Assembly: GCA_030247885.1 (NCBI GenBank)
Contig: JAPDRO010000002.1
Location: 1,240,001 to 1,304,000 of the forward strand
DNA length: 64,000 nucleotides
Source of the DNA: Taxawa tesnikishii (nom. ined.)
Lineage: Eukaryota; Ascomycota; Dothideomycetes; Dothideales
Reading direction: 5' to 3'
Made by a program: the position numbers and the translations under genes. Under the pieces are notes generated by a model that was not told the DNA's origin, searched no databases, and worked only from the letters and a program-made list of their open reading frames with translations. Of this stretch, positions 20,482-63,832 are shown in pieces; the first letter of the stretch is position 1; every line of letters begins with the position of its first letter.

Positions 20482-21373
20482 CTAAGTCCGGGGACTATAT
20501 ACGGCCATCTCTAAACCGTTTGAGAACGGCAAGGTCAATGTAGTGAAGGGGCTGTCCGGATCCCTTAAGTAATCCAGGAGGTCTTTATAAAGATCACTCA
20601 TCGAAGCGGTGTTGTCAACGATAACGACGGCACCTGTCCTAAGCCTCGGCTGCACAACCTTGAGAGCTGGCAGAGCCATGGCTGCCCAAACTGTATATGG
20701 TATCAATCGACTTGATTCTGATAACACTCTTTGTGAAAGAACTCACTATCCAAAAGCAGAAGGTCCACTTCGGGTAAGTCTGTCTTCAGGGTGTCCCTAA
20801 GGTCTCCAAGGCGCAGCTTGATATGCTGCTTAACGTCCTCACCAGCTTCCATCCAGTGTTGCTTAGCCTTGGCTGCTTTGGCTTCCTCGATCTCAGTTCC
20901 GATGACTCTCCCGCCCTCGGGATCGTTTTGCGCAACAGCGAGGGCAAGGTATATGGTCGAGACCCCAAAACTAGTTCCCACCTCGACAATGTTTCTCGCA
21001 CGCGTTGCAAGTGCAAGCTGGTAAATGAATTCGCATTTGTCCCGGTCGAGTGCGACAAACTTGTCGATCATAAGATTGTGAAGCGCGGCATTCCCGCGGA
21101 CCGGATCACTTCTGCGAACCCCCTCAAGGCTGCCACAGCATCGCTCGAGGCACGTTCCTCATTGAGACTGAGCTCATGGAGGCGTCTCAACAAGGCGTGA
21201 ACATGTTGTGGAGCCCGGACTGTTCCCAGGGACCGCCGTGCTAGATACGAAGGTGTGAAAGGAACGCGAGCACTAGGTATGCGATTACAAACTAAATTCC
21301 TCAAAGAAGAGTCTAAGCGTCTCAAGGACATGGCGGTTTGTATGCGACAACCTCCTGGCGTTTCCGCTGTCAT
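20482..21373 (-). CDS. SAM-dependent O-methyltransferase (family 3 type), frame interrupted
   Basis: The core reads MIDKFVALDRDKCEFIYQ, then the SAM-binding motif VEVGTSFGVSTIYLALAV, and VDLLLLD. A 56-base intron (20691-20746) joins this to IWAAMALPALKVVQP and VVIVDNTASM. The C-terminus (GLEMAVYSPRT) is complete. Upstream, HVHALLRRLHELSLNEERAS belongs to the same family but lies in another frame. The switch falls in or next to a C5 run (21119-21123 on the + strand), where one missing base explains everything and joins to SDPVRGNAALHNLMIDKF. The first 45 residues have no family match, so the start is uncertain. Relatives methylate small catechols or hydroxy acids. It is either a miscalled functional gene or a recent pseudogene. 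Confidence 0.75.
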
Positions 21374-22215
21374 ATGTGCTAACAGATTGATTACATAACT
21401 GGGTGTTGCAGGTATCGTACACTACGGTTTTACCCAAAGGCCAAACGTTTTTCGGGTACGATCGGATCTCCTTGGCCTCAGGACTGCTCGAAGCTGTACC
21501 CGATTGCTTTAACTCATCAACTAATTGCTAACGAAGTTTATTGATCAGTCCACTAACTTGAGCCTCACTCTCTATAGAGGTAGAGAAGACATAGGTTATG
21601 CTCGAAAACTGACTGTCTACATAGTCTACAATATAGCTAATTGCGACTAAATGCTCTAAGTTAGGATCTACTCGAAGCCTAGGACATACTCGGTAATGAT
21701 ATGCTAAACCCCCTAATGTCTTACAGCGCATCGATGAGAGAACTTGGTCTCAAAGGGGCCCTCGTCTTCGACAAAGGTAGCGGATGGGTATGTTCACGTA
21801 AACTAGAAAGGTTTCTGGAGTCCTCTGCGTGCTCCGGGGATCAATCTGACGCCAACAATTTGGGTAGCTTCGTAACATAGAGATTGTCCACAAACGCGAA
21901 TGAGTTCTTATCGAACGGTTGCGGCAAGGCTACCTCTTGGGGTGGGATCGCATGCGAAAGGAACACGCATGTCGGAAAGCTAGTTCCAGTTACAACACTA
22001 GAAGCAATCCCTCTTATAGTTCACGTACTCAGCTTCAAGCTTTCCCTTACGCGGTCACGGATGGTTCACTGACTGATCCGACCATGTTTAGTTTCCTTAT
22101 ATTTCGTCCATGTTTCCCATACTGTTGAGAGCTTTAGAAACATGAATCCAACTCCAATAAGATCACTCTCTATCGTGGCCGGTTGTATTCTCATGACATC
22201 CATGTCTCTACAAGT
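21374..22215. other. TA-rich, decayed-looking spacer
   Basis: The stretch 21500-21740 is richer in TA and CTA/TAG words than its surroundings, as old repeat-induced-mutation remnants can be. No transposon protein motif or terminal repeat is visible, so I name no element. Confidence 0.4.
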
Positions 22216-23117
22216 TTACTGAACTACGCCGCCCTGATGCTTCACGCTCTGATTCGCCTTGATGATGCCTGCAATGACATCCTGGTTGAAGCTGATGTTG
22301 TCCATAACGATGAGTCCAAGACTCCAGAAGCCCTGCGCCGGTGCCGAGGTTGGGTTGGAGCCATGGGTAAGCACTTGGGCGATACCTCCGGAGAAATAGT
22401 CGGCTGCTTGCTTGTTGCCAGACGCAGTCTCGGTGGCGAGCCAAGTCTGAAAGAAGATTTCCCGGAGAAAGCGACGGATACCATGCCAAATGCGATGTTG
22501 GTGCGATTGATGGACAGCTGCAATGCGCTATTGACGCGGTCCCATGGGCTGTCGATGGCATCGAGGTTGCCCCATGTGGACGGATCAGGGCTGGGGAAGG
22601 TCGTGATCTGGGTGTCAAGGCTGACCGGCCAGAAAGCCTTTGGATCCACGGTGAGCGGACTGTCAAACGCATAGCCCAGGCGCATGTCGTTGTCGGCGAG
22701 AAGAACTGCACGTCCGCGGACTTGGCTGAGCGGAATCTTGTGGGCTGGCGAGTCACCAGTATATATGAATGCGGAGCGCACTTTGAAGTCTTGAAGTGCG
22801 TTTTGGAAGATGCGGAGCCAGTCGGTAGATTTGTTTGAGTTGAAGTCTGCTTTCCAGCCAAGCTCGTGCTTGATCTGGATCAGGACGAACTCGGACTTGT
22901 GATCGGCAAGGAAGGCCGCAACAGAACCGACGAAGTTTAGGAAGGAACCGTCACCGCTGAGACGAAGGTCGAAGAAGCGGATGCCGCGGTTGAGCTGTTC
23001 GAGAGGGCTGGCGTCGCCATACTGCGAGCGGTAGGTACCCACGAGGTTGATTGCGTTCAGCGGAGTCGAGTCGATGATGTTTGACATCCAGTCATTTTGT
23101 CCGTAGTTGCTGGCCAT
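22216..23117 (-). pseudogene. PLC-like phosphodiesterase (PI-PLC X domain) relic
   Basis: From ATG at 23117 the frame reads NDWMSNIIDSTPLNAINLVG, then LEQLNRGIRFFDLRLSGDG, VGSVAAFLADHKSEFVLIQI, LSQVRGRAVLLADND: the order of blocks of a PI-PLC X domain. The catalytic His of the usual PGTHDS box is Tyr (VGTYRS). The segment that should carry the second His (VYHG after the DLRL strand) is missing, with FFDLRL running almost directly into the next helix. At about 22480-22510 the frame breaks, and the C-terminus (LVMDNISFNQDVIAGIIKANQ-like, ending VVQ) continues in another frame to TAA at 22216. With both catalytic His residues gone plus a frame break, this is most likely a dead gene; an inactive but expressed homologue is less likely. 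Confidence 0.7.
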
Positions 23118-24265
23118 AGTTGCTCGTGTAGACGTTCTGCCTTCTGGTGCTTTAGTCTTTGGAGTGCTCAATGGCAAGAAGAGGTAATGGGGTGATCAGG
23201 AGGAGATGAGAGGAAAGAGAAGTTTCCTTATATACAGTTGCATACAGCTCAAGAAAAAGGTCCAATATCCAGGGCATGAAAGCCCTACCTTAGCCCTAGT
23301 TTATATTGAAGGTGACACGGCTTCCGTTGCGAAGCTGAATACGGGATCTTGGCGATGTGGGTTTGGGGTTGCGATGCGTCTCAGCCAGCCTTTGCGTGGA
23401 GTTGCATGACTGTCAGGATCTTTTGCAACAGCCACCATTGCGCGTATTCAGGAACAATGAACGTGGGTCTCCTGGAGGTTAAGATGCCTTCGCGATGGCT
23501 CCCAAGCGTTTCAATAAGAGCCGACATACTCCGAACCTGCGTCGCTAGGCGGCAACAGCAAGCAACGATCCGGATTGGCTAAATGAGTTGGACCGTATCC
23601 TCTTACGGGAAACCTCTGACGGTGGTATTTCCGCGTTTGCGAAAGACGCCTCGAATACGATACGTTGGAATATCAGCACAGCACATTGAGATTATTTTAC
23701 AGACCGCATCTGACTGCTTCCGGCGATGCAGGAACATCGGTGAAAGGTTGAAGGGAACAAAAACTTGATGGTTGTCGCGAGCTCGTATGCAGTGCCTAGT
23801 TGCACAACAGTGAAGTGCTGCTGCATGCACCTTGTACGACCAATGTACAGTTGGCGTTATTGAGGCTGGCGGTATGCAGATGTGTGCCTCTCTTGGTTGA
23901 GCGCCAACATGCCGCTCCGCGGGATCTCTGTATCCATGCCATGTCGCTTGTAACAGCTGAGATGGAGTTTGCTGAAGAAAGGAGGAGGAAGAAGTGAAGA
24001 AGGAGACTGCCTGAGTTCTTCGAACCCGCCTGAGATGCGATGTGCCAAGCCACAGTCGGATGAGAATTTCCACATCCACTCCTGCATTTTCTCTTCCACT
24101 ATAACGTACGATACTGACTCTCTCCACCGAATTCGTGCCTGAAACTTCCAACCTGCGATCCTGAGCCGATACTAAAGTTCTCAGGCGCGTGGCAGAGCCA
24201 AAAGAAATCGAGGCTGGGTTTTCTACAAGCTGAGGTCAAAGTGATTCGGTCACAGATATATCAAG
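23118..24265. other. Spacer without a supported gene
   Basis: No coding signal on either strand. It holds the old promoter of the PLC relic and the upstream region of trm11. Confidence 0.5.
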
Positions 24266-26080
24266 ATGACCATGGAATATCTTGTACGCTTCGTGCAGAA
24301 GCATGAAACCTTTCGCAGACCCGAGCTAGAGGCCTTAGCTCGGTTGGCCGGCTCCGTATGGAGGTCGTTGAGTATCAAGATGAAGTATGAACATTATTGC
24401 ATCAACAGCCTAGAGAGGATGAGCGAAAGACTGTAATGCCCTGTAAGCAATCAGGATGAAAGGTAAATTGATGCGGTCGGATTTGTTTAACATTAGATAT
24501 ATATGCATCCCTGTATATGCATCGTCTTCCATATGGCGCGCAATTGCGAATGCTGGTATGCAGGCTTTCGCTCATCCTCCCTTTTCCACTCTCCGTCGAG
24601 CCATGACTGACGACTTCCCAGTCCCTTTCTGTATCATCCGTCTCGATTCAGATACGGATGCCGCTACTCTAGTCTCACGCGCTATTCTCACGCAATCAAT
24701 CTACGAACTTTGGGCCACCGGCGACTCCTACGAGTCCCTCCACTCATCCATCACATCCCGGACACAGCACCTATGGCCGTTGTACAAGGAGACCTCCTTT
24801 TCCTTCCATATCGACTCGTTTCAGGGAAGCCGCTCCAACAGCGCAAAGAAAGCCATCATCGACTCCTTCAGCTACCTCCCCTTCGACGGTCCCATCGCCA
24901 TGAAGAATCCCGATGTCACCTTCACCGTACTGGAAGAGTATACCGTACGCGAGCCCGCCCCCACCGCATCTTCTTCGGCCGCTTGATTGCGCACAGCGGG
25001 CGCAAGGTCATCGACAGATACGACCTCAAGAAGCGCCGCTACATATCCACCACGTCCATGGACTCCGAGCTCGCGCTGTTGACCGCCAACTTCGCGCTCG
25101 CAAGCCCGGGGAAACTGTGCTACGACCCGTTCACCGGCACAGGTAGCTTCCCCGTCGCCTGTGCGCACTTCGGCGCCACGGTGTTGGGCAGCGATATCGA
25201 CGGGCGTAGCATTCGCGGCAAGCCGAACCGCAACGTTGTTAGCAATTTCGAACAGTATGGATTGGTGGCGAGGTATTTGGATGGGTTTGTAAGCGATCTG
25301 ACAAACTCGCCGTTGAGGATGGCGAGGTGGTTGGATGGTATCGTATGCGATCCGCCCTATGGGGTCAGAGAGGGGTTGAAGGTGCTGGGTAGCGCAAGGC
25401 ATGATTTGCAGCACGAGATCAGGCTGCCGGACGGGCGCTTGGCCCATTTGTTAGTTCCTCTCTTTCTTTCTTTCTTCTTCCCTTGCCTCCTTCCCTCCCT
25501 CTCTTCCGGTACCGTCGTGGAAGCTGTTGTACAAAGAGTAGCAGCAATACTGACATGCTTGCCACACAGAGCTGAGGGTTATATCCCACCAAAACGTGCC
25601 TACAGTTTCGACGCCATGCTAGATGACATCCTGGACTTTAGTTACGAGATGCTAGTGGACGACGGGCGTCTATGCATGTGGATGCCGACAGCCAACGATG
25701 AAGACATCGAGATCGCAGTCCCCAGTCATCCTGCGTTGGAGCTTGTCAGCATCTGTGTTCAACAGTTCAACAGATGTGCGTCGTTTCCAGTTGTTGACTG
25801 TCCGGCAGTACAAGAAATCTAACTAACGAATGGTGTAGGGGCACGCAGGTTGCTTACATATCGCCGCTTGCCGCAGTCGCAGGTGGACCAGAATGCTGTC
25901 AAGGCCAGGATCAGGAGCGCGAAAGCCGAAGGCACGACTGCGGACGAGTTGAACAGCTTCCGGCGGAAGGTAGAAATCGAACTCACTCTTTGGGCATTTG
26001 GGGTCTTGGCTAACGCTGTGCAGTATTTCCAAGGGTTCAAGGATGCGAGTGGAACCTCGACCTCCGCGGAACCAGCGTGA
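24266..26080 (+). CDS. TRM11: tRNA (guanine10-N2)-methyltransferase Trm11, frame interrupted
   Basis: The N-terminus (MEYLVRFVQKHETFRRPELE) lies at 24272; MEVVEYQDE follows in a shifted frame at about 24358. The next certain block is PFCIIRLDSD at about 24620, and the exact 5' exon joins are unresolved. Then come YTVREP and, one frame over, RIFFGRLIAHSGR; the switch is at a C5 run (24958-24962) lacking one C. The methyltransferase core has YDPFTGTGSF, GSDIDGR and the catalytic CDPPYGVREG. Introns 25450-25569, 25776-25838 and 25970-26023 are well defined and restore RLAHLAEGYIPPK, FNRWARRLLTYRRLP and FRRKYFQGFK. Trm11 with Trm112 methylates G10 of tRNAs. Conservation on both sides of the break argues for a sequence error rather than gene death. 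Confidence 0.85.
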
Positions 26081-26735
26081 CCGCTTTGCAATACAACAAG
26101 TCAACCGCTATGGAAATTGGCTCCATGCCCGGCAGGTGCGCTCTACTTTTGGACGCTACTTCTATGGAACGCATGTTGTTGCTTGGATTTGCCCGGACTT
26201 GTGCGTACAAGACAAAGCGCAACACTTTACGTAACAACTTGCCGACGATTGTGTGAGATACGAGAGGCTGCTCTGGTTTTTCAAAACCACAAGTCCAAAG
26301 ACGAATGGTATGACCCACATGGCGGGCTGTGTGTCCTTGTTGATAGAAACATCCCGCAACAAGCACCGTATGAACGAAGAGATCCCTATAGGGTTGCGAG
26401 CAGACTGTTCGATTAGATATGGGCTCGTTGAATAGTGATGTGTGACATACTTTTATGCTGTGTGGATCCCTCTCCTCGTCCGCCTGTTGCGGCATTGAAC
26501 TCTTCGGGGCGGCACTTCTCAGGGCTCGTATCGACATGCTGGCGGTCATCTCATCGCATCTGTCCGCTTCCCTTTCCTAGCCAGCAGAAGAAAAGTATCC
26601 AGCCTTCCCACTTTGAGGGTCCCTGTCGGCTCCACGCGCTTCATGCCCTACTATCTTCCGGTCACGCTCTTAGCGTGATCCTTGATACGGCCAAATGACC
26701 CGGTGGCCTCCAGAGTCCTTCCTGCCCTGAACCGC
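26081..26735. other. Convergent spacer
   Basis: Between the 3' ends of trm11 and lsm8; no further gene seen. Confidence 0.5.
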
Positions 26736-27134
26736 TCATGTATGTTTCGTCGTCCCGATAACCTCGCCCCTGACCTTCGTCCAGTCAATACTGGCATCCA
26801 TGCTCTCGTCCACTTCTCCGCACACGACGACGTTATCTCCCCGGATCATGTACAACCCATGCGGGGTCTCGGAGCTAGGTTCTGGGTCATCGGGGGCCGA
26901 ATGACGCGCTCGATGGTTTCTTTGAGGACGAGGTTCGTGACTTGGTCGCAGGAGATTAAGGTCCCAGTGAGTGTGCGCCCGTCCACGGTTACGATGAGGA
27001 TGCGCTCTGCGTAGTGGGTCAGTCCGAGCGTTGAGTCGAGTAGAAGTGGGATGCAGGAGTAGAGACGAATTGAGGTTGTAAGAGAGAGTGTGTGTGTGTG
27101 ACGACTTACTGTTCATGTATTGTTGGAGCGACAT
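26736..27134 (-). CDS. LSM8: U6 snRNA-associated Sm-like protein Lsm8, frame interrupted
   Basis: Exon 1 (27110-27134) encodes MSLQQYMN. A 103-base intron with a (GT)n tract follows. Exon 2 (26736-27006) gives KRILIVTVDGRTLTGTLISC, the Sm1 motif, then VLKETIERVIRPP. The frame breaks at a G5 run (26892-26896) lacking one base and resumes as DDPEPSSETPHGLYMIRGDN (the Sm2 motif with IRGDN). With the base restored the protein is 98 residues, the usual size. Lsm2-8 binds the U6 3' end in the nucleus. The gene is essential in budding yeast, so a miscalled homopolymer is far likelier than a true mutation. Confidence 0.92.
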   Translation of the reverse strand: MSLQQYMNSKSSHTHTLSYNLNSSLLLHPTSTRLNARTDPLRRAHPHRNRGRAHTHWDLNLLRPSHEPRPQRNHRARHSAPDDPEPSSETPHGLYMIRGDNVVVCGEVDESMDASIDWTKVRGEVIGTTKHT

Positions 27135-27623
27135 TGTGGTGAGGTGGATGCCAGAGCGCGTTTGCGCCCGGCGGTGCTTGCTTGGATCGGAGAGCCTTTA
27201 ACGCAGCCGAAGTGGTATCACGATTCCAGATACAGCTGTGGAGGTGATTTCAGAGGTCAGAACGCGCGTAACCCGGGCCGTTGTACGGGTTGAGGGTTTG
27301 AGATGTTAGGTTGGTCGTAGAGCTGTTTTGCATGTGAAGCTCAAAGCTCGCGTTCAGAATTCACTTCGCGGAGACGATTCGTGCACGGCCATGGCTTGGC
27401 AGGGGAGAGCTGGTTCTCAGGTCGTAAAAGAGGTCTCCCAAGAGAGCACGAAACTGGCAAGGAGCTTCACTTGGAAAGCCACAGAGATTATGCATGGTTG
27501 TGCGTTACAGATATCCGATTCGAGAAATAATGGCTCAGTAGCCTACGCCGAAGACAAGCAATGCCCCCATCCCATACGCCACCAATGCTGTACAATGTCG
27601 CTACTCTTCTGAATAAGATACTT
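27135..27623. other. Spacer without a supported gene
   Basis: Promoter side of lsm8 and 3' side of erb1. Nothing else recognisable. Confidence 0.5.
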
Positions 27624-30050
27624 CTAGCACCAGAGCCTGATGGTCCCGTCCGCACCCGCGCTCAGACACCATGGCTCCCTGGGGTGCCACTCCACGTCCA
27701 GCACACCCAACTCACCTGTGACTTTGTGCCCCTTCAGCACCTTTAGCGGCACGATCGTCGCATTCTCCAGACTATCACCCACGACCTTCCCGTGGAAGAT
27801 CTGTACACTACCATCGTCGCTGGCGTCTGCAAACAATGGGTATTGTCCCGCATTCGGATGATACCTGACGCTTCTGATAGCTTTCTGGTGGTACCTCAGC
27901 GTCTTGTACGGTGTATTCGCCAAGTCCAGATCGTGCCAGAGGAGTCTTCGGTCGTACGATCCGACGAGTAGGTTGTCGCCGCCGGGGTGCACGTCGATGG
28001 AACTGATCCAGCGCGCGCCGGGCTTGAGCTCCTTTTCTAGCCTCTGTGCTTGTAGGTCGTATAGGCGAATGGACTGACGGGTAGCGACGAAGAAGAGCGG
28101 TTTGCTGGGATGGAAGGAGCAGGTCTGTGCCAGGCCGCGCAGGCGTCGGAAGGGGTGTTGGGTCAAGTGTTTGGAGAGGGTGTGGATAGCGATGGCTTGC
28201 GATGCGCCGCTGGGGGAGACAGTGCTGAAATAGTCACCGCGGCGGTGCCAGTGGATGACCTTGATGGTCGAGCGGACGGTGCACGAAAGGAGAACACCCT
28301 TTTCGGCAAGTTTGGCGCCGGGTCGTGCCCATGTCGCTGCTGGAGGTTTGCGGACGTCTTGGGTGGATGTGGTAGTGGAGTTGGCAGCGTAACCAAAGCC
28401 AGCGTCCAGAATTGTTCGGCTGGACTCCTCGAGATCGGGTGAGCAAAAATCGAGAGGAATGATAAAGTACATTGTTTCTCCCGCAGCCGCGCCAATGATC
28501 ATGCCATCTCGGCTTGGTCGCCAGCGTACAGCATTTACCGCCTCATCAGGAGACAACCTGACACGGTAAAGCTCACGTCCTGACAGAAGGTCCCATACCC
28601 TAACGGTACCATCATCACCGCCACTCGCAACGAAAACACCGGTAGGATCGACGGAAACGCTGCGCACGCGCCCTTGGTGTCCTCGGTACAACGTCGCGCA
28701 AACAGTTGGGAACGGCCTGAGCTCATCTGGGGAAGGAAGCTTGGGAAGTAGCGATTCTGGATCGATGTTGAGCTTGCTTCGCCGTACTCGCGGTGCCAGA
28801 TACAGATCCAAGCATCTCTCGAACTTCTCCTTGATGAATCTCTCATATCCGGGAACTTTCCGCAGAGCAGTATGATCGGTTGGCAAGAAGTCCGTATCAC
28901 GATCCTCTTCGTCCGCGTCTTCCCAGGCTTTCCTTTCTTGCTGATCGGGTAGATACTCTGGCGGAGGATGATACGACTCAGCATATCCGGGCGGCGGCAG
29001 CTTCGGCGCAGGGACGTTCATGGGATGATCCGGTCTCGGGGCTTCGTCTGCCCAGATATCGTAGCGCTTGACGTCTGGGTTTTCTTGCTCTTCACGTTCC
29101 TCCGGCCGTCTGTATGGCTGTATCCTTCCCTCCTTGATCGCTCTCACGATCTTCATGACACGCTTGGCTTCGTGTTTACTGGGAACAAACCTCCTCTTGG
29201 GTTCGGGTGCCGCACTCAACGGCATAATCTCCGTCTTGCTAGTGAAATATTCGACCATGTCCGGGTACGGATCGTAACCCTCACCAGGCGCCTCATTTCT
29301 CGTTATCCGCTTCAGCACATCCAGCTCTTCTTTACTCAGCTCCAGGGGCTTGCCCGTCGCCGGATCCGTCAAGCCAGTCCAGCCTTCCGGCAGATCTATG
29401 CTGTCGAGCAGTGCGTCCAGCGCCTCGCCTTTCGCAGGGCGCATAATCTTCTTCCCGTTGACGTCGTAGCCAATGTGAGGATATGAGTCGTAGTACGTCA
29501 AAGGAATGTTGCCGATGGTGTTTGTAGTCTGAGGCGCATCTGAGTCATCTGAGTCGTAAACCGGATCAATCTCCCTGTAGATATATCTCGGGTTGCCGTT
29601 CGCGTCTTGGGTTACGGTGTAGTTTGGTCTTAATTCTTCGTCATTGTCTTCTCCCTCTGCGCCTGATGCACCATTGGTTAGGGTATTTGTAGGCGCCTTT
29701 GTAAAGTCTGCCGATCTCCCGTTTCCTGTGGCTGTTCCATTTGTCGGCGCACTGCCTGTTTTCAGGTTCCGTATCTGATCCCGTATATCTGCCTCGTCGT
29801 CTTCTGACGGAATCTCGTCACTGTCGAGCTCTTCTTCGTCATCTTCGTCGTCCTCATCCTCCTCTCCGCTGTCGTCTCCCTCCTCCATGTCGCTCTCATA
29901 GTCGCTGTTTTCCGACTCGCCTTCACTTTCCGATAGAATACCATCCAGTACTCCATTTCCAAGCTCCGCATCTAGTGTAGCAGCAGCTGCCGGCTCCTGA
30001 GCATCCCTAGTCACGGCCTTGCGCTTGCGGTTCTGGGTGGAGAGCGACAT
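27624..30050 (-). CDS. ERB1: Ribosome biogenesis protein Erb1 (BOP1)
   Basis: One intron-free frame of 808 residues, matching the family length. A basic N-terminus (NRKRKAV) and a long Asp/Glu-rich region (about 45-95) precede the BOP1-N-terminal domain (about 165-430: [48 protein letters not shown]). A seven-bladed WD40 propeller ends the protein ([45 protein letters not shown], and DGTIRLWC at the end). Erb1 forms the PeBoW complex with Nop7 and Ytm1 in the nucleolus and is needed for 27S pre-rRNA processing and 60S assembly. It is divergent from a Zn2Cys6 regulator with a 307-base shared promoter. Confidence 0.95.
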
Positions 30051-30357
30051 TGGAGAAGCGAATGTGATTGCTTTGAATATGCGCGATCGTAAAGTCGAAA
30101 GAACGGGCGGGCTTCAAAAAGTTACGGACGCGAAGTCTTGGCGGATGATTATCTTATCAAAGATCGGTGCTGAACTTCAACCGTGATGGGGCTAAGTGAC
30201 TAAGGGTGTAGGCTGCGCAGGAACGATGCTTAGTAAAGCAACCGAGTTGCGTGCATCCTTCGGACCTCGACTCATCCTCTCTAGTATCACCTATTCTAGT
30301 TGAGGAACCATCGGGGTAGTTGCCTTTAATTTAAAAAAAAAAAGAGAACAGTAATAA
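30051..30357. promoter_or_regulatory. Divergent promoter ERB1 / Zn2Cys6 gene with an A-tract
   Basis: The 307 bases between opposite ATGs contain an AT tract near 30327-30345 (TTTAATTT followed by about 13 A), a likely nucleosome-depleting element. No other site is recognised. Confidence 0.45.
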
Positions 30358-31598
30358 ATGTCGAACAGAGCGAGCACGGCGACCGAGCAGCCGCCTCGAC
30401 GGCGGGCCGCATGTGATGAATGCCGTACGCTCAGGCCAAACTCAATCTGTAAAGTGTCGAATTAACGGCGATACAGGCACGAGAAAGCTCAAGTGCACAG
30501 GCGAGCAGCCAAGCTGTTCTCGGTGTGTTCGTGAGCGACTCAACTGCATCTATTCTCTGCAAAAGCCTATGGGAAGGCCAAAAACGCAGACGAGGGTCTG
30601 AGGAACGGATTGCCGCCACGACTCTGCAGGCAGCACCGCAGATCGGTCTCGAGCTCACTCACTCGACCAGTATACCTGAGTCGTACCAAGCTCCAGGGTT
30701 GGATACGACAATGATGCAAAGCTGGATGAGTGAACAGGGCTGGGATTTGCCAGCTCAGGACTTCTATTCTGGAGCAGCTGAAGAGACTGCCATCCCTGCA
30801 GTACCTGAGCTTACGCCTGAGTGAGTATTGACTCCGCTGTCCTTCTCTTCTTCCACGCAACCTCTGATAGCTGGTCCCAGTCCAAGCAACTCTTCCTCAT
30901 CCAACAATCTCACCCTGGCAACGACACCTCTGCCTGACCTTTCTCTCACCCTGGCGAACCAATGCGCCTGTCTCTCGAGCATGTACCTGTCACTTTCCAA
31001 CCTGCAATCCATGACCACCTTCTCCTTCCCTTCCTCGTTGCACACCCTGCGCAGTGCGATCAACACTGCCTGGGAAGTGCTGCACTGCCCTATCTGCCCC
31101 TCGCGCTTCCTGACAGCCATGCACAACGTGCACCTCCTCGGGATCTTACTGATCAGCATCGTGGAGCGGTACACCAAGATGCTGGAGTCCATCGACTCTG
31201 AAACACAGTACGCCATCAGCCAGAACGAGACGCGCACTTTCTCGCTCGTCGACCTCAAGACGCCCAACTCGCATCTTCACACGACGGACAATTTGGGCTG
31301 TTACACGAACAGCTTCAGCGTCCACCTTGCGCCAGAGGAGTGGTCCAGGCTCGCCAAGAAAGTCGTCAAGGCCGAAGTCGTGGGAACGCCGGATGGTTGC
31401 TGTCCGGGATTTGTGGCGCTGGTGACCCAGATGGAACGCAGGCAGAAGGGATGGCATGCGTCTCCACTGCACATCGACTACCCGCAGATTTACAAGGACG
31501 AATGCAGCAGGCCCAGGCCAATGGACGATGGAGAATACCAATGCTTGACGCTTGTGGAGCAATCGAAGAAGATCGTGAGTAGTTTGCAGTGGGATTGA
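30358..31598 (+). CDS. Zn2Cys6 transcription factor, frame interrupted
   Basis: Exons 30358-30424, 30477-30820 and 30881-31598. The binuclear zinc cluster is split by intron 1 and reads CDECRTRKLKC, then SCSRCVRERLNC, with spacing C-x2-C-x6-C-x6-C-x2-C-x6-C. Just after it (MGRPK) the frame is lost at an A5 run (30580-30584) with one A too many; the next frame continues RRRGSEERIAATT. Intron 2 joins ELTPD to PSNSSSSNN. The C-terminal domain (CACLSSMYLSLSNLQ; ILLISIVERYTKMLESID) is typical of a large group of ascomycete C6 regulators that often sit beside secondary-metabolite or catabolic genes. After correction about 375 residues. The target is unknown; being divergent from ERB1 is probably coincidental. 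Confidence 0.85.
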
Positions 31599-35790: not shown

Positions 35791-37306
35791 TCAGCCAAGC
35801 AGATCCAGCGCACTCACACCCCTCTTCCTCTCCCTCTCCCTCTCCCTCCCCTCTCCCTCCCCTCTCCCTGGAGCCGGAGCGGCTAGCACCGACGGCACGA
35901 GCCGCATCGGCTCCACCATCCACACGCCGATGATCCTGGTTCAGCATCAAGAGCGCGGCCATAGCCTCGTGGTCCTTGTGCGCCTCGTCCCTGCTGGCCC
36001 TGCCGTCGACGGGTTTGAGCGCCGGGCTCGTCAGCGCGAACCGGTCGCCGTTGAGGTTGCTAGTGGCGCTGGTGGAGTGGGAGAGCGCGGGGCCGAAGAA
36101 GGGAGATGTGGTCGTTGAGTGCAGGTACGGTGAGAAGGAGGCGCCGGTGGTGGTGGTGGTGGTGGTGGAAGAGGAGGCGGAGTAGTGCCGGTGTCGCGCT
36201 GTGTAGTTGGGGTGCTGCGGCTGCGAGGAGAACGATGGCTGGTGTTGTTGCTGTTGTGTGGGTTGAGAGTGCCCGGTCAGTAGAGGGGAAGGAATGGGAG
36301 TCGTGGAAGTGAGATAGGCGATCGACGGGAGCGAGATCGTAGAGGGCCGCGGATGCAGCGTTGAGGGTGTGTTGCTGGAGGGAGTGTCGTGCGCGTCGGA
36401 CATTTCTTGGTCCGAGTCCTCTTCTACGACGTCGTCCTGCAGCTGTGCGGATGGAAGGGAGTTGGAGGGTCGATGCTGGGTTTGCGAGTGCGTTGTTGAT
36501 GGTCGCGTGCTGGATGTGGCGGGTTTACCGTTGCTGTTGTTGCTCGATTTCAAGTCCGTGATGCAACGCTCCAGGTAGCGGAGGTAGTCTATACTTGCCT
36601 GTTCGTCGTCAGCGCTGCATCTACCACCTTAGCTTTCCCTCTCCTCCTCCACCTCACCGGGCAACTCCCGTGTCCTTCACTCCCTTCACTGGCTCAGTAA
36701 CGCCGTCAGGTAGAACAAGACGTACCTGCAGTATAGCAAGCTTATGCATCTCCTGCCCCCTACACGCCGGGATCAAATCTTTCAACACACCAAACTCCTC
36801 ATTCATCTTACTCCTCCTCCGTCTCTCAATCAGGCTATGCGCCGTCTTACGCGCGATCTTGCGTCCCGCCGCCGTCGTACCCTCCTTGCTCCCTCTCTTC
36901 CCCTGCCACTCTTTCCCGTCGTGACTGCTGGTGTCGCTTCCACAGCCTGACCGGCCTGCTCCTCTGCGGGCCCCGCTTTCGGTTTCATGTGGATTATCTT
37001 GCGCGACCTGGTGGGCGGAGGAGGAAGCGTGAAGGTGTCGTCTGACTGTTTCGCGCGCGACTGTGCAGCAGACGATTTCCGAGTGCTCGTAGCAGGCGAT
37101 GTCGGCGAAACGGGCCTGTATGAGGAGTCGGAGCCATTGCTGGACGGGGTTGAGGATGCTGTCCGGTCGCTGGTGGCATCGACGTATGCGGAAGGGGGCA
37201 GGCTGAGGGCTGGCGCCAGGGAGACCAGCTTGTCCTTGCCCCGTATGTCGGTCGATGAAGCTGGCGTTGGCGGTAGGTTGCCAGGCGGCATTGTGGGCGA
37301 TGTCAC
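35791..37306 (-). CDS. bHLH transcription factor (short-loop type), frame interrupted twice
   Basis: Exon 1 (36726-37306) and exon 2 (35791-36598), with a 127-base intron, give about 462 residues. The N-terminus is Ser/Pro-rich. The basic-helix region reads ARKTAHSLIERRRRSKMNEE, helix 1 FGVLKDLIPACRG, and the intron cuts helix 2 (HKLAILQ then ASIDYLRYLERCI). Exon 2 is low in complexity, with Ser, Gln and Thr runs, and ends RGVSALDLLG. One missing base in a C4 run (36900-36903) separates the N-terminus from the bHLH, and one extra base in the GGGAGA-type purine repeat near 35830-35875 separates the body from the C-terminal GVSALDLL motif. The family regulates E-box genes; the specific target is unknown. 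Confidence 0.85.
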
Positions 37307-47565: not shown

Positions 47566-49335
47566 ATGCCTATCAAGAGCACCGAACAGCTCAAGAACCC
47601 CCAGGAGTACCAGAAGATCTTCCAGTAAGCTTCGCAAGAGTCCTCTTTGCTGCAACGACAGAATGTTGACTGGAATCGCAGCTGGGCAGAGACGCAACAG
47701 GATGGCCAAGTCCCAACCTTTGCTACCAGGAAGAACGACCCTTACCAGGTATGTTTCTATAGATTCTCTTTCTTTGAAGGGACCAGAGCTAACCCTGCGA
47801 TAGTACCAAGCGGGCTTTAACAACCAGTAAGCTACAGCGCCGACGGATGTGCCTCGTGTTCGCCATTCTAACCTTCTTGTTTCGCCAGCTTCGAGTCCGA
47901 AGCTATCCCAGGCACCATCCCGCAGGGCCAGAACAGCCCACGCAATGTTCGCTTCGGTCTCTACGCTGAGCAAATGACCGCCTCCGCCTTCGTTGCTCCC
48001 AGACACAAGAACAAGAAGGCGTGGTTGTACCGCTCCAGGCCTGCTGTTGCTCACCAAGGCTTCGTATGTCATCCTCCAGAATGCCATCTCTCGAATCAAG
48101 GGAAAATTAGCTGACAGCGGCGACGGCAGACCAACCTCCCGGACAATGAGAACACCGAGTCCAACTTCCTCCCAATGAACCCACGCGTCCATGTTTCGCC
48201 TACCCAGCTCGCATGGCTTCCATTCGACGTTCCAGAGAAGGAGCACGATTTCGTTGATGGACTCTGCACAATTGCCGGTTCCGGTGACCCAACCCTTCGT
48301 GAGGGTATCGCTACCCATCTTTTCACCGCCAACAAGTCCATGGAGAAGAGAGCCTTCGTCAACAGCGACGGTGATTTCCTCATCGTCCCACAACAGGGTG
48401 CTTTGGACATTCAGACCGAATTCGGTATGATGTACGTGCAGCCGGGTGAGATCTGCGTCATCCAGCGCGGACAGCGCTTCAAGGTCAACATCGAGGGACC
48501 CACCAGGGGTTACATTCTGGAGATTTGGGGTTCTAACTACGAGCTTCCAGAGTTGGGACCTCTGGGTGCAAACGGTCTGGCCAACGCAAGGGACTTCCTG
48601 AGCCCAGTTGCGCACTACGAGGTCACCAAGGACGACCCATGGAAGATTGTGTACAAGCTCGGTGGCAAGTTCTTCGAGAGCAAGCAGAACCACTGCCCCT
48701 TCGACGTCATTGCATGGCACGGCAACTACGTAAGTCTTCATCTGTTCTCGTTCTTCAACTATACGTCTAACAAAGGCACTTCAGGTTCCATACAAGTACG
48801 ATCTCACCAAGTTCGTCAACGTCGGTTCCATCTCCGTCGACCACATCGACCCCTCCATCTTCTGCGTTCTGACCGCTCCCTCTCGCGACCCCACCGCCCC
48901 TCTTGCTGACTTCCTCATCTTCTCCCCCGTTGGGACGTCGCCTCTCACACTTACCGCCCACCCTACTACCACCGTAACGTTGCTTCCGAGCTCATGGGTC
49001 TCATCTACGGTGAATATGCCGGCCGTTCCGATGAGTTCCAGCCTGGTGGTGTGTCCTTCGAGTGCGGCATGGTGCCTCACGGTGTTGCGTACGAGGAGTT
49101 CAAGGCAGCGAGCGCACAGCCACCACCAGAGATGCGCATCTCGGAAGGCGCAGTCGCATTCATGTTCGAATCCAGCAGGCCATTCACCATCACTGATTGG
49201 GCGATGAAGAGCGACAAGATCCACGAGCACGATCCCAAGATGTGGGACGACCTCGTGGACAACTTCTCCAACCACAAGGAGGAGGTTGATGAAATCTTGA
49301 AGAAGGCCGGCAAACTGAACATCAACGGTCACTGA
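47566..49335 (+). CDS. hmgA: Homogentisate 1,2-dioxygenase, frame interrupted
   Basis: Six exons (47566-47624, 47682-47748, 47804-47826, 47889-48063, 48130-48729, 48785-49335), including a 23-base micro-exon, encode about 491 residues. Landmarks are [60 protein letters not shown] and the iron-ligand region [18 protein letters not shown]. In the last exon the frame is lost at a C5 run (48924-48928) lacking one [10 protein letters not shown] should run straight into [14 protein letters not shown]. Everything after it is intact to the TGA. The enzyme opens homogentisate to maleylacetoacetate in Phe/Tyr degradation and controls pyomelanin formation. The fumarylacetoacetase and isomerase genes that often accompany it are not in this window. 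Confidence 0.95.
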
Positions 49336-52474: not shown

Positions 52475-53442
52475 TTATTCTGATCGACCCATCTCAGGCA
52501 TTTCTGCAATCCCTATTTCTTCCTCCTGGACCAGCTGCATGTGCAAGCCCGCACCGGCTACAGTTCCCATATACATGGCTTGTGTGACCAGCTTCATCAT
52601 GGTACCAATATCTCCGGCAGCGAGCACGCCTTTGACATTTGTCTCGCCGAACGGTTCGTTCCTCTTCAGAACCTCACATCCATTTTGATCCTCCAAACCC
52701 TCAACGCCTAGCTGGTCCACGACCTGTCGGCCGTTGACCTCCATCCCAACAGGTCTGTGTGCCAGGAAGCCAAACTCAGCACCTCGCCGTCCTCGGATAC
52801 GACGTCAAGCCCTTGCTCCTCTTCACCTCCAACGACTACGAGCTTCAAAATTCTGCGTTCGTCGATAGCAATGCCCTTGTATTTCATCACTTTGATCGCA
52901 TCCTCGCCCTTTTCATCTGTCACCACGAGCCCTCCACGAGCCAAGATCCTGACGTCTTGACGGCCGAGCTGCAGCATGGTGCCCACGTTGTGGAAATGAC
53001 TGGCATCGACCGGTTGCGTAACCAGTACCGCAGCGCGCTTGTGGCGTCTTTGGAACCTGTCGTTCTTCCCCAGTCCTCCTCGTACCCTTCGATCTCTGAG
53101 AACAGGTCCCAAACGCCCATAGTTAGCACTATCTTCTTGCCCCTCCAGATCTCACCTGCTTCCTCCTTTACTGCAAACCACGCTTCCCTTACTTTCGCAC
53201 TCGATCACATCCACGAGACCCTTCTCAACGAACCTCGTAAGCCCGTACTTCTCAACGTCTCGACGGCCAAGCTGCCGTATCTCAGCAGGGTGCACATCAT
53301 CCTGCGTCAAAATCGTGTGAGCGCCAGTTACACGGGACAGTGCGAGTGCGGAGCTCAGGCCTGCTGGGCCTGCGCCTAGGATGCGGGCGTTGTAGAGGTG
53401 GGCCTTGGATGCAGCGGCGAGGAGGGATTCGGGTGTTGCCAT
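52475..53442 (-). pseudogene. Thioredoxin-reductase-like flavoprotein, degraded
   Basis: Family pieces appear in order but in changing frames: LGAGPAGLSSALALSR, HTILTQDDVHPAEI, WFAVKEEAGEIWRGKKIVLT, GVWDLFSEIEGYEEDWG, then LVTQPVDASHFHNV, GFLAHRPVG, and the FAD-binding end ETNVKGVLAAGDIGTMMK. One frame change lies at a C4 run (53068-53071) and may be a miscall, but two others do not sit in obvious long homopolymers. About 22-25 residues that normally bind the FAD adenosine are missing between SRV and HTILT, and the redox CxxC stretch is replaced by FQRRHKR. Relatives without CxxC include oxidoreductases of secondary metabolism. It is convergent with the PrpF-like gene, only 66 bases away. Likely non-functional. 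Confidence 0.7.
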
Positions 53443-57472: not shown

Positions 57473-58032
57473 TCAGTTTGCAACGAAAGCGTGGGCTGAT
57501 CTGGAACCGCCAGAAAGTGTAGTTGTACATGCGCATGGCGTCCATTTAGGCTGACACGTGCGCGCCGCGCGATGGGGTACATATGGACGGCTGTTGTCAG
57601 TATAGTCGTCTTCACGACAGCACATATTGCGGATGTCAAGGACCAAGTTGGCGATCGGGCCCGTCACATTCTCATATTCCGCATTTCTGGCTGTCAGCTC
57701 TTCGATCTCCTTTTGTCGCGTCCTCCAGCGGGTCGCGCCTTCGTCAACATCGTAGGCACATTGATGAGTCTTGTCAAGGCAGCGTCCGCATGCGGGACGA
57801 GCGGCATCACACTGCCTTTATCCTTAGCAACCCTAACATAGCTCTTGTATATAAACGGAGTGGACAGGCGGACCTTTACTCGAGCTTTACGGCAGGAAAG
57901 ACAGGCAGCGTGGACTTGTTGACGTGCTCCTTTCTTTTCGTTACGACGACAGGGTTGCCTGGGCTTCCGGCGGGCAGAAGCGGCAACGGATTGGTTCTGT
58001 ATTTTCGCTTCATCTGCTCTAGGATTAAGCAA
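57473..58032 (-). CDS. Very short Zn2Cys6 protein
   Basis: Exon 1 (57874-58032) and exon 2 (57473-57811), joined over a 62-base intron, give about 165 residues. The join completes the zinc cluster: HAACLSCRKARVK, then CDAARPACGRCLDKTHQC, with C-x2-C-x6-C-x6-C-x2-C-x6-C spacing, followed by the usual linker YDVDEGATRWRTQKEIEELT. After a further 70 residues without family character the frame ends. The 400-600 residue regulatory domain of ordinary C6 factors is missing. It may be a truncated gene, the 5' part of a gene broken by an unseen intron or indel, or a mini-regulator that competes for DNA. No downstream homologous sequence was seen between 56420 and 57472. Confidence 0.65.
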
Positions 58033-58695
58033 CAGCTACTTGTATGGAAGTAGGAGCGTACTTGGGGAACGGCAGAGCGTCGAGACTCGTCTCACCCTAA
58101 CATCCTTGGGCATGGCGGGGTGGGTGCATCCTCTCGGAGGGGGTCGATATCCCGAGCGAATCATTTGCTGAACATCGGAGAACACTCCGATGTACGAAAG
58201 ATGACCGACGTCACAAAGCATATTGCTCAAGACGGGCCAAGATCAAGAATGCACTATCTTATCAGATCCCTCGGATACCTCTGATTGACATGTACCATCA
58301 ACCGACTCGACACCGGAAGACGATGTGGCATGGAACCCCTAGGAATGATCGGAGCGCGGCGGGGTTTGTAAGGGGAATTCCATTATGCTACGATAACACC
58401 GTTAACACCCTTGAATGAGCCCACATATCATTGTGGAACCGCAAAAGAGTTCCGTCCCCGACTGCAGAGCACGCCCTTGACATCCACAAATACTCTGCAA
58501 CTGGGTGTCCATAGCGTGCTCTGGTCATTAGGTTGGGGTGCTACAAACGCCGTCAGAAACGCATCCGTCCCCCTATCTCCATCCAACGTGAAAAAGTCCG
58601 CAGTCTAGCATGCAATGGTGTACGAGCTGAGCCGGCGCTGCACTTCGGTCTGACCGCTCTCGCTGCGCCATGTCTTTCGTAAGGTGGCAACTCCT
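58033..58695. other. Spacer without a supported gene
   Basis: Promoter side of the short Zn2Cys6 gene and 3' side of ypt1; nothing recognised. Confidence 0.5.
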
Positions 58696-59673
58696 CTAGC
58701 AGCATCCACCAGCGCTTCCGCTCTGAACGCCCTGGCCGGTGCCGACCTGTACGGTGGGTTTGTTGTTGACGGTAGTGTTGCCCATGCGCTCCTTGATCTG
58801 CCGAGCCATGGTCAAGAAAGCCTGCTCAACATTGGAAGCATTCTTGGCGGAAGTCTCGAGGAACGGAATGCCCAGGCTGTCTGCGAACTCCTACAACCGC
58901 GCTGTTAGACTTCTTCAATCGTAGCTTGCATTACACCTTTTGTTGCTTGAAATTCGAGTAGGTTCGGCATACCTTGGCTACGGTGTACTCCACGACTTTC
59001 TTGTCTTCCATATCGCTCTTGTTACCAACGAGCAGCTTGTTGACGCCCTCGGTCGCGTACCGGTCAATCTCTTGCAACCACTGCTTGACATTGTTGAAGC
59101 TGTCCATGTCGGTGACGTCGTAGACGACGCAGATGCCGTGAGCGCCGCGGTAGTAGGAGGATGTGATGGTCCGGAAGCGTTCCTGGCCGGCTGTGTCCCA
59201 CTATAGTTGCCAGTCATCAGCTGTGTTTGCATGTTTCCGCGGGGAGAATATGTGCACGTACGATCTGAAGCTTTACGGTCTTGCCATCGAGCTCGATGGT
59301 TCGGATCTTCTGTAGTAATTGTCAACCGAATGGTTCTTTCCTTCGTGCAAGTCCCTCGGAAGATAACGTACGAAGTCAACGCCGATGGTCGAGATGTAGC
59401 TCTCGGTGTAGGTGTCATCGGCGAATCGCAGCAGCAGACAAGACTTTCCGACACCAGAGTCACCGATCAGGAGGAGCTTGAAGAGGTAGTCGTATCTAAA
59501 GCAAGACGTGAGCGAATAATTTCCAGGGGGCTTAAGGATACGAGCGCAAGTCGCAGCGCCGCTTCAGTCGCTGTGTGAACGGATGGACACACTCTACAGG
59601 AGCTAATGTTAGCGATTCGTGTTCGAAGTGAGGTAGTCGCTTGTTGCGATGCTACTTACTACTCTGGGTTCAT
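58696..59673 (-). CDS. YPT1: Rab1-type small GTPase Ypt1
   Basis: Five exons (59663-59673, 59372-59495, 59262-59309, 58973-59200, 58696-58890) give 201 residues. The first exon is only 11 bases (MNP plus two bases of the Glu codon). All G-box motifs are present: GDSGVGKS (P-loop), [18 protein letters not shown] (switch I/effector loop), [12 protein letters not shown] (switch II), NKSD and ETSAKN. It ends GSAGGCC for double geranylgeranylation. The effector loop and the [16 protein letters not shown] segment identify Rab1/Ypt1, which drives ER-to-Golgi transport and autophagy. Intron 1 (167 bases) is the longest and directly follows the start, as is common for this gene in moulds. Confidence 0.95.
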
Positions 59674-60372
59674 GTTGAGCGGTGGCTTTCTTGCGTGTAC
59701 TTAATTTCAGGGTGTTCGGTAGGGAGAGGGGGTTATCTGGGAACTACAACAGTAAGCAGAGTTCCAGTCCAGAGGATTTTATCGCGCGGCAGACGGTGGC
59801 AGGCAGAAGCGTACAGCAGGCAGATGATGGGTGGTGGTGGTGGTGGAGTTGGGTTTCTTTGGTTCAGTCGGCGATGTCACAGCCTCTAGCCAGCTGATGC
59901 CGTCGTGATGGCCCTCAGGGTTCGCCGCCATCACCACGGCATCTTCCGGCCTAGGGCTGGGGTAACACCTACTTTGAACGGCTGAGAGACCGTAATCAAA
60001 ACATCTATTGGTACACATAGAGAAAAAACAGATAACATCTGCAGAGACGGACGTCTCTCACGTATTCCAATGCGTTCATTCCGGTCAAAGCATCGCATAA
60101 CTGCGTTCCCACTGAACCAGAAATAGTGTGGTCTCCTGCTGGTTTCTGACTCTCTTCGACCTGTCACATGGGCGTGCGTCTCAGTGGTACTCCCACATAA
60201 CATGGCTTATGTGCAGTTTCGCTCCCGAATATTATAATAAACCATGATATGCAGGACTAGGAATGAGCCGTATCAATTTGGCTACAGTCATAACTCCCAC
60301 CCAGTGCTATGCAAACCTGCCCTACAGACCGACAAGGGAGTAGCCATTTTAGGTGCGCGGTCCACAATCTTA
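59674..60372. other. Spacer without a supported gene
   Basis: Contains the ypt1 promoter and leader (a CCACCA/GTGGTG run at about 59829-59846) and the 3' region of the WW gene. No gene recognised. Confidence 0.5.
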
Positions 60373-61655
60373 TCATCTCCACGCAGGAGGTGGAGGACCG
60401 CCATAGCCGCCGCCTCCTTGCTGCTGTCCGTATCCGCCTCCACCATATCCGCCCTGCGGAGGACCTCCGTGGTGTCCGCCAAATCCTCCTTCCGATCCTG
60501 GACCCCCATAGTGACCTTGGTTGTGCTGACCGTGCTCATGTGGTGGACCTCCGTACCCCCACCATACTGTTGTCCGCCTGGCTGACCATACCCACCTTGA
60601 TTGTGCTGACCATAGCCTCCCTGGGGACCGGGGAAACCGCCGCCGTGATGCTGGCCCTGTGGCGGGCCTTGATGATTTCCATAGCCGCCCTGTGATTGAC
60701 CGTATTGATCATGAGGCTGCCCGTACTGGCTTGGAGGTGGAGATTGGCCATAGCTCGGTGTGTGCGGTTGACTGCCGTACTGATTGTGAGGCTGAGACGG
60801 CTGTCCGTATTGGCTGTGCTGCTGAGAGCCTGACTGATAGGATGCGGGAGGTGCTTGACCCGTGTATGTGCTTCCCTGATTGTGTCCACCCGATGAGTAT
60901 CCGTAGTTGTTGCCGTGCTGCTGGTTCTGCGACAGGCGGTTATTACGAGGCGTCGTGTGAGCATAATTCGCGCCTTACAGAGTGCTTTCCACCAAGCAAG
61001 CCTCCAACTATGCCTCCTAGGCCACTACTGCTGCTGCTGCTGTGACCTTGAGAGCTACCGTGAGATCCACCTCCGAGCAGGTTCTGAGCCAATCCCATGA
61101 TTCCTGACTGGTGCTGCTGCTGTTGATTGTGGGGCTTGTTGCCGCCCATCAGAGCGTTCATTGCTACACTCTTTACTGAAGTCAGTCTGCGTTCTCGACT
61201 CGACAACCAGGAATGCGTTGCGTACACCCAGGCCACGCTCTCCTTCCTGGCCCTGCTCAGGATACGAGCCATTGTATCCTCTGTTGTCACCGTAGCCTTC
61301 GTTCTCTTGAGGCATTGCGAATGGGTTCTGTGACGGTGCTGGTGTGCTTCCAGGTGTTGGTACTGTGGGTGCAGCTGTTGTTGGAACTTCCCACGTCGAC
61401 ACTCCTGTGCTAATTTGAACAAAATAATACTTTCGTGATCTGAACAAGACTGGTTAGAGTGAATGTTGTAAAATGTAACAGCAGGTCGATACGTGCTTTG
61501 CGTCCCACTGCGCGATCCTAGGCTACGTCAGTGCCAAGGCCTTGGAAGGCTGTGCTCATGAATGACTGAGGGGACTGTTGGGAAACGTACCATCCCGTGG
61601 GCAGAGGGGGCGGCGCGCGATCAGGTCCAGCATCAGGCGTTGTTGGCTCAGCCAT
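60373..61655 (-). CDS. WW-domain protein with prion-like Gln/Gly/Tyr-rich tail, frame interrupted
   Basis: Exons 61591-61655, 61493-61517, 61226-61439, 60979-61170 and 60373-60926 give about 349 residues after two indel corrections. The WW domain is split over the first three exons: LPTGWIAQWDA, then SRKYYFVQISTGVSTWEVP, with both Trp present; such domains bind Pro-rich ligands. The middle has AMNALMGGNK and GLAQNLLGGG, and the last exon is a long Gln/Gly/Tyr/His-rich region (GQPSQPHNQYG, GGYGQHNQGGYGQ) ending YGGPPPPAWR. One frame change falls at a C5 run (60556-60560) lacking a base, another near 61498 (one A too many). Composition and plan recall yeast Wwm1. A condensate-forming adaptor is inferred. 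Confidence 0.82.
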
Positions 61656-62165
61656 GCTGAGCTGCTTTAATGGTTCGCGACCGCAACCGGGAGGATATGC
61701 TAGTGTAGTAGGGTAGGGTAGGGTACGCTAAAGATATGATCGAAGGGTTGGCAGCTGACGGAAGTGGAAAGCCTATGGGGTCACAGGACGCTTGAGTCGT
61801 AAAGTGTTAGGTGTTGAGCTTGGGATGGAAAATCGTTTAGAGCGACAACCCAAGAGAACGAAGTCGGACTTTGTTGTAACTGAGCTTGCTGTGACTTATG
61901 CATCCATGGCCGCATACTTCACTTGCCCTGATTGGGCAGTCTCGGATCGTATCATGTGAGGAAAAGAAGGTAATTCCAATTGCATCGCTAGGTAGAGAAA
62001 CCGGCAGTTTTGGGCTGCCACGCTGAACAAGACATGATCTTATGAGCATGATAATTTACGAAACCCCGAAGCCGTCCCTAAACCCAAAGGCTTCCTAAAC
62101 GCGCTTCCTGATGATGGCCGACTGCGCCTACAAACCCTTGATCATTACAGTAGTTTGCAAGACGT
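61656..62165. other. Spacer without a supported gene
   Basis: Promoter of the WW gene and 3' region of alpha-tubulin. A short GTAGG-type repeat lies at 61707-61724. Confidence 0.5.
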
Positions 62166-63832
62166 CTAGTACTCTGCCTCAGCGCCCTCCTCACCCTCCA
62201 CGGAGTCGGCGGCGACCTCCTCGTAATCACGCTCGAGGGCAGCCAGGTCCTCACGAGCCTCGGAGAACTCGCCCTCCTCCATACCTTCACCCACGTACCA
62301 GTGCACGAAGGCACGCTTGGAGTACATGAGGTCGAACTTGTGGTCGAGAGCAGACCAGGCCTCGGCGATGGCCGTGGTGTTGGACAGCATGCAGACGGCG
62401 CGGTTGACCTTTGCAAGGTCTCCGTTAGGCACCATCTGTGGTGGCTGGTAGCAAATACCGATCTTGAAACCAGTAGGGCACCAGTCAACGAACTGGATGG
62501 TGCGCTTGGTCTTGAGGGTAGCAACAGCGGCGTGGGTCTCCTTGGGCACAACATCACCACGGTAGAGCAGGCAGGTGGCCATGTACTTGCCGTTGCGGGG
62601 GTCACACTTGACCATCTGGTTATTTGGCTCGAAGCAGGACATGGAGATCTCCTGCACCGAGTTGGACTCGTGGGCGGACTTGGCAGCGGAGACAACTGGG
62701 GCGTATGCAACCAGGGGAAGTGGATACGGGGGTAGGGGACCAGGTTGGTCTGGAATTCGTTCAGATCGACGTTGAGGGAACCATCGAAACGCAGGGAGGC
62801 GGTGATGGAGGAAACAACCTGAGCGATCAGGCGGTTCAGGTTCTCGTAGCTGGGGCGCTCAATGCCGAGGTTGCGGCGGCAAATGTCGTAGATGGCCTCG
62901 TTGTCGACCATGAAGCTGCAGTCGGAGTGCTCCAGGGTGGTGTGAGTGGTCAGGATGGAGTTGTAGGGCTCAACAACGGAGGTGGCGTTCTGGGGAGCAG
63001 GGTAGACGCAGAATTCCAGCTTCGACTTCTTGCCATAGTCCACAGAGAGACGCTCCATCAGCAGAGCACCGAAACCGGAACCGGTACCACCACCGAAAGA
63101 GTGGAAGACCAGGAATCCCTGGAGACCAGCGCAGTTGTCGGCAACCCTGCGGACCTTGTCGAGAACCTGGTCGATCATCTCCTTTCCAACGGTGTAGTGA
63201 CCACGAGCATAGTTGTTAGAGGCATCCTCCTTGCCCGTGATCATGTTCTCGGGGTGGAAAAGGCTACGGTAGGTGCCGGTGCGGACCTCATCGACCACAT
63301 TGGGCTCGAGATCACAGTAGATGGTACGGGGAACGTACTTGCCGTTGCCTTGGTTGTGTTAGCTTTGGACTTCGATGAGCGGCGGGATTGTGTGTTGTAA
63401 AGATAGCGCATACCAGTCTCGGAGAAGAAGGTAGAGAAGCCGTGGTCGTCATTAGCGGCCTTGCGCTCTTCGGTAAGATATCCATCAGGCTGTTCGTATG
63501 TCAGTCCCACCCTGCATTGATGAATGCAATGGTTGTTTACATACCTGGATGCCGTGCTCGAGACAGTAGAGCTAGGCAGAAAATGTCAGTCGATTCTGTG
63601 CCCCTTGCTGCGCAGCCAGCAGCATCGTCCATGCTGGCTTTCAATTGTCGGATCCGTGGAGTGTAAGCTCACCTCCCAGCAGGAGTTGGCGATTTGGCAA
63701 CCAGCCTGGCCGACTGTACGCGTCTCATGTCAGTGTTTACTGCGTTCAGTGTGCTTCGCTTGAGGGGGCGGTCAAGGCGCGTTGAGCACAATCCGGGGCC
63801 AACGTACCGTTCAAGCTGATGATCTCACGCAT
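62166..63832 (-). CDS. tubA: Alpha-tubulin, frame interrupted
   Basis: Five exons (63808-63832, 63673-63713, 63545-63571, 63414-63489, 62166-63348) give 450 residues, exactly the family length. It begins [20 protein letters not shown] and has the GTP-binding [10 protein letters not shown] loop, the alpha-specific [11 protein letters not shown] and the acidic C-terminus [10 protein letters not shown] ending in Tyr. In the last exon the frame is lost at a G4 run (62714-62717): RIHFP should be followed by [19 protein letters not shown], and one missing C (coding strand) accounts for the break. The gene is essential, and sequence on both sides is almost perfectly conserved, so this is surely a base-calling error. 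Four early introns of 54-101 bases are typical of mould tubulins. Confidence 0.97.

Follow-up and report, generated by a model that had tools for sequence, protein, structure and literature searches.

Frame changes at short single-letter runs in the Taxawa tesnikishii assembly as probable consensus errors, one of them masked by a false intron

Introduction

Nanopore base calling miscounts single-letter runs, and the counts are mostly too low. Residual homopolymer errors of nanopore assemblies are on record in PMC8812927, PMC9262707, and PMC12007338. Here, we analyze a 64,000-nucleotide (nt) stretch of Taxawa tesnikishii JES_119 (hereafter the window; bases 1,240,001 to 1,304,000 of contig 12 of the assembly), in which nine genes change reading frame at short single-letter runs. 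These changes resemble such nanopore errors, in which a wrong base count in a single-letter run disrupts the frame of an intact gene, but they lie in the assembly of a fungus that is described as hybrid, fall on short runs of 4 to 5 letters, and include at least one that is masked by a false intron. They also recall programmed -1 ribosomal frameshifting, in which a -1 change occurs at a run; unlike it, they affect many unrelated genes and include one opposite change, and the relatives are continuous in all three genes for which they were compared. Pseudogenes share the interrupted frame, but here both sides of the break are conserved, essential genes are included, and the Trm11 copy is unbroken elsewhere. 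The frame changes are almost certainly consensus base-count errors of a nanopore-based assembly, a known artefact that reflects no biological feature.

T. tesnikishii belongs to the Dothideales and was isolated from desert soil crust (PMC11195213). In that source, which names BioProject PRJNA631111, JES_119 has a nanopore coverage of 194.58x and an Illumina coverage of 25.38x, with base calling by guppy 3.4.4 and hybrid assembly by MaSuRCA; its assembly section describes no polishing step, and the word “homopolymer” is absent from its main text. Its Table 2 gives 97.4% complete BUSCOs for the Illumina and 92.9% for the nanopore version of JES_119. In JES_112, with a nanopore coverage of 0.83x, complete BUSCOs fall from 84.7 to 73.4. 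The assembly used here has 29,367,862 bases in 34 contigs.

Results

A sequence-only reading of the window had listed nine genes in which the frame is lost at a short run, eight of them at C or G runs lacking one letter and the ninth at an A5 with one letter too many. All nine runs are where it placed them, and the frames agree: the supported coding frame changes by -1 at the eight C/G runs and by +1 at the A run of the Zn2Cys6 factor (Table 1). Every listed site is hence a one-base frame change at a single-letter run of 4 or 5, and deletions prevail, with -1 changes at 8 of the 9 window sites and at all 4 sites found outside it. The frames were compared over 150 nt on either side of each run by their openness and coding score; exact placement independent of the run requires a profile or homologue that spans it. 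Of the window, 3.5% lies in runs of at least 4 and 0.37% in C/G runs of at least 5. All nine assigned switches fall on the former and five on the latter, and because such runs cover so little of the window, the switches are not due to chance. The case is strong for HmgA, alpha-tubulin, and Trm11, fair for Lsm8, Zn2Cys6, bHLH, and the flavoprotein, and weaker for the O-methyltransferase-like (OMT) and WW genes, where it draws on openness, coding score, and composition, with no homologue across the run.

The coding-potential model was trained on 78 long open frames and gives 0.17 nats per codon in frame. Its use as the sole locator of frame changes was rejected, the contrast being too weak, and it served only for choosing pieces and for comparing the frames beside the nine runs.

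Table 1. Frame changes and associated features in the window and elsewhere in the assembly
Feature	Position	Strand	Frame change	Basis
Run (C5) in OMT gene	21119..21123	-	-1	Frame openness
Trm11-like tRNA methyltransferase gene region	24447..25819	+	Frame broken	UPF0020 match; Dothideomycete homologues
False 59-nt intron in deposited model H2203_001360, over run	24938..24996	+		Reproduces P0122 start
Run (C5) in Trm11	24958..24962	+	-1	P0121 reads through
Run (G5) in Lsm8-like gene	26892..26896	-	-1	LSM profile in two frames; coding score
A run (A5) in Zn2Cys6 factor	30580..30584	+	+1	Zn_clus before; reading and coding score after
Run (C4) in bHLH factor	36900..36903	-	-1	P0244 aligns to both frames
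Run (C5) in homogentisate 1,2-dioxygenase HmgA	48924..48928	+	-1	HgmA_C in two frames
Run (C4) in GliT-like flavoprotein	53068..53071	-	-1	GliT alignment ends beside run
Probable second flavoprotein change	53180..53221	-	+1	Weak 4ntc alignments
Run (C5) in WW/Gly-rich protein gene	60556..60560	-	-1	Composition, coding score
Run (G4) in alpha-tubulin	62714..62717	-	-1	Tubulin GTPase domain in one frame, Tubulin_C in another
Changes at short runs outside the window	L028, L037, L038, L039			CCT-type chaperonin, two HSP70-like, Rpb2-type

The most direct evidence comes from Trm11, for which an independent protein (P0121, encoded on a 15,327-base contig) is identical to the window in each of the 346 residues that can be compared, with no substitution. 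Its residues 2 to 61 follow the frame ending at 24962 and its last 287 residues the frame beginning at 24959, so that the junction lies inside the run. Since P0121 is otherwise identical and unbroken at this position, a separate sequence is continuous there. The sequence-only reading expected automatic annotation to split the affected genes; in the one deposited model inspected, that of Trm11, the break is instead bridged by a false 59-nt intron. The deposited protein, P0122 (H2203_001360), lacks the residues around the run, and this intron is the sole GT..AG span, among those tried, that yields its first 118 residues. The residues that it cuts are retained in the compared relatives. The annotation masks the Trm11 error behind a false intron, and the gene is not split.

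At HmgA, one frame, which ends at 48928, matches positions 2 to 41 of the HgmA_C profile, another, which begins at 48925, matches positions 41 to 153, and the relatives P0261 and P0326 are continuous at the position of the run. At alpha-tubulin, the frame of Tubulin_C starts at 62717 by profile match, and solved alpha-tubulins align up to the run and onward from it. In both genes the parts after the run keep strong matches. At Lsm8, the LSM profile matches from 9 to 44 in one frame (E 1.9e-9) and, weakly, from 47 to 64 in the other (E 0.075). Matches on the two sides meet at the run in HmgA and tubulin, and less firmly in Lsm8; OMT and WW are supported by frame and coding score. Lsm8 and Erb1 adjoin in the window (26739-30113). 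Erb1 is intact there, and its closest named record among the best 120 matches is from Zalaria obscura (80%). The Aureobasidium pullulans Erb1 record P0020 (905 residues) bears an LSM domain and is perhaps a fused model of such a pair.

The remaining sites are supported in diverse ways. For the Zn2Cys6 factor, Zn_clus matches in the frame 30335-30598 and the gene continues in the frame 30453-30821 by reading and coding score; the upstream frame was picked by openness and Zn_clus, its log-odds being near zero. The related protein P0244 aligns to the bHLH gene at 73% over 112 residues in one frame and at 84% over 69 in the other, the second alignment beginning six poorly matching residues ahead of the run, which is the only one of at least 4 letters between 36897 and 36960. 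The flavoprotein has a GliT-like alignment (E 0.0003), and after the run the coding score favors another frame; upstream, the best frame does not stay open across 150 nt, and the piece after the run had no match among solved structures. The structure 4ntc aligns weakly to this gene in two frames, one reaching residue 90 and the other starting at residue 103, with about 40 nt between them. This points to a probable second change in the gene, by which the list of nine sites is incomplete. The two flavoprotein changes enclose about 110 nt in another frame.

In the OMT gene, Methyltransf_3/24 matches in the piece 20706-21158, and the 150-nt flanks have one open frame upstream of the run and a different single open frame downstream. 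The upstream frame has a coding score of -0.8, yet it is the only open one. No homologue was found across the OMT run: among solved structures the upstream piece gave one chance-level match (E 1.2), and the downstream matches start about 35 residues into their piece, short of the run. In the WW protein, a composition rich in Gly, Gln, and Tyr carries on in the other frame. In a combined homologue search of five sites, the best 120 matches contained only bHLH and HmgA proteins and hence no homologue of OMT, Zn2Cys6, or the flavoprotein; none of the listed proteins inspected came from Taxawa.

The same signature occurs outside the window. Profile searches of the whole genome with seven families gave 83 rows, which mechanical clustering reduced to 48 match clusters and 35 neighboring pairs. 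Two clusters (tubulin and MetRS) and one pair lie within the window, and a nested tRNA-synthetase match counts as a cluster of its own. The Aldedh search scored 11 of its 48 first-look candidates, and an AAA search (20 of 92 scored) was excluded from the pair count. After adjustment to the profile, 31 of the 35 gaps are of at least 49 nt, which fits introns or in-frame inserts (two of these large gaps, 240 and 410, are odd). Three are exactly -1, in a CCT-type chaperonin gene (contig 1), an HSP70-like gene (contig 3), and an Rpb2-type RNA-polymerase gene (contig 7). The last, of 38 nt in an HSP70-like gene of contig 1, is likewise read as a -1 change, located at a run of G. Names of genes more specific than the Pfam family were assigned by reading. 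Three of these four changes fall at G runs of 4 to 5 and one, in an HSP70-like gene, at a run of four A; the errors are thus not limited to C and G. They may perhaps also extend beyond runs of at least 4, given the second flavoprotein change. Such breaks may be denser in the window than in the remaining genome, the two samples not being comparable.

Over 264 kb of the assembly, C/G runs of at least 6 number 12, where 28.7 are expected from the shorter runs (binomial P 0.00013). This deficit, calculated with no fungal baseline of such base content, agrees with an under-counting of C and G. A deficit of A/T runs of at least 6 shows only once the telomeric locus is left out, with 24 against 36.8 expected in the other 19 loci (P 0.0084). 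A synonymous-codon shuffle, which predicted more long runs than are present (C/G runs of at least 6, 0 against 27.9 predicted), was set aside, as it used a biased sample of long open frames and shorter runs were low too: 287 against 392.8 for C/G runs of 4 and 44 against 98.7 for those of 5, with A/T runs also low.

Elsewhere in the window, the genes for MetRS, an MFS protein, a VPS9 protein, and Asn synthase (positions 1 to 20000) were read as intact or intron-interrupted, in a reading that was not exhaustive. A GMC-oxidoreductase-like gene (2590-4098) has an in-frame stop at 3538-3540 with coding-like sequence beyond it and is a possible true pseudogene; the piece that follows the stop has no Pfam match to a GMC C-terminal domain. 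The window gave no tRNA and no Rfam match. Contig 12 starts with a CCCTAA repeat array (L005, first 80 bases) and therefore reaches the telomere.

Discussion

The nine frame changes are best explained by nanopore miscounts of bases in single-letter runs, some of which the assembly retained, the genes themselves being intact in the organism. The other eight sites would share the cause of the Trm11 break, and we infer that the Illumina data failed to correct the errors at these sites, perhaps patchily. The diagnosis of assembly error already made by the sequence-only reading has gained from the nanopore source of the assembly, the drop in BUSCOs, the same signature outside the window, and the unbroken P0121.

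Short introns misread as frameshifts could produce a similar picture. The deposited Trm11 model places an intron at the run, all nine sites have a GT..AG span of 45 to 120 nt over the run, and the three such spans of HmgA have a frame-restoring length. However, in HmgA, tubulin, and Trm11 residues of profiles or homologues extend across the run, and in Lsm8 they almost do. Since residues are continuous across these runs, any intron span there would delete conserved residues, and no GT..AG span could be removed without such a loss, OMT and WW being undecided by homology. Moreover, the gaps of the seven families are either of at least 49 nt or exactly -1, with one at 38. Introns are therefore a very improbable explanation. 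It is no easier to believe that the genes are truly broken in this strain. The assembled letters do show breaks, and the GMC-oxidoreductase-like gene contains an in-frame stop, but the joint loss of the sole alpha-tubulin seen, a CCT-type chaperonin, and an Rpb2-type gene is unlikely, and the parts downstream of the breaks are conserved. Conservation after the break is not relaxed in tubulin or HmgA, and the genome search gave one alpha-tubulin (beta and gamma were separated by reading), which is among the affected genes, in line with the earlier argument that essential genes are hit and real mutation is implausible. Trm11 is also unbroken in the otherwise identical P0121. Pseudogenes thus have only a minute chance of being the answer.

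Another possibility is that programmed -1 frameshifting or transcriptional slippage at C/G runs restores the frame in the cell, as eight of the nine changes share their direction and occur at such runs. Yet the affected housekeeping genes are unrelated, the Zn2Cys6 change is opposite, and P0121 requires no shift to encode Trm11. If a shift were needed, it should be needed in relatives too, and their Trm11, bHLH, and HmgA proteins are, at the protein level, continuous over the site. We regard this as the least probable of the alternatives, with even smaller odds than introns or pseudogenes. Finally, the assembled run length could be real in the culture at one or more of the sites besides Trm11, with the frame restored by slippage or the culture mixing run-length variants; this, too, is highly unlikely.

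Several observations weigh against consensus errors as the explanation and should be kept in mind. An assembly labeled as hybrid in PMC11195213 should have lost most such errors. The sister isolate JES_115, sequenced in the same way, shows the reverse BUSCO pattern in that source (90.2 Illumina versus 92.6 nanopore), and the nanopore drop is therefore not general. The table of PMC11195213 lists JES_119 with 29,383,553 bases in 38 scaffolds, slightly unequal to the assembly analyzed here in both length and contig count (34 versus 38). The run lengths are the letters of the assembly and not raw read counts. For A/T runs of at least 6 there is no deficit in the whole 264 kb, with 49 where 55.0 are expected (P 0.2), nor in the window, with 11 where 10.2 are expected. 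The Zn2Cys6 change has the opposite direction to the other eight, and no run of at least 4 underlies the second flavoprotein change, the longest runs between 53141 and 53215 having 3 letters. Finally, P0121 informs on one of the nine sites, at the protein level, and its source is coded only as “lgn,” probably an assembly made from public read archives.

Hence, consensus errors remain by far the most probable reading, and the importance of these results concerns data quality only. Other gene models of the Taxawa assembly may hide errors in the same way as that of Trm11, and they may thus be wrong in a manner that is not apparent. Counts of gene losses, introns, missing domains, and pseudogenes in this genome should not be trusted until they are checked against the existing Illumina reads of the project.

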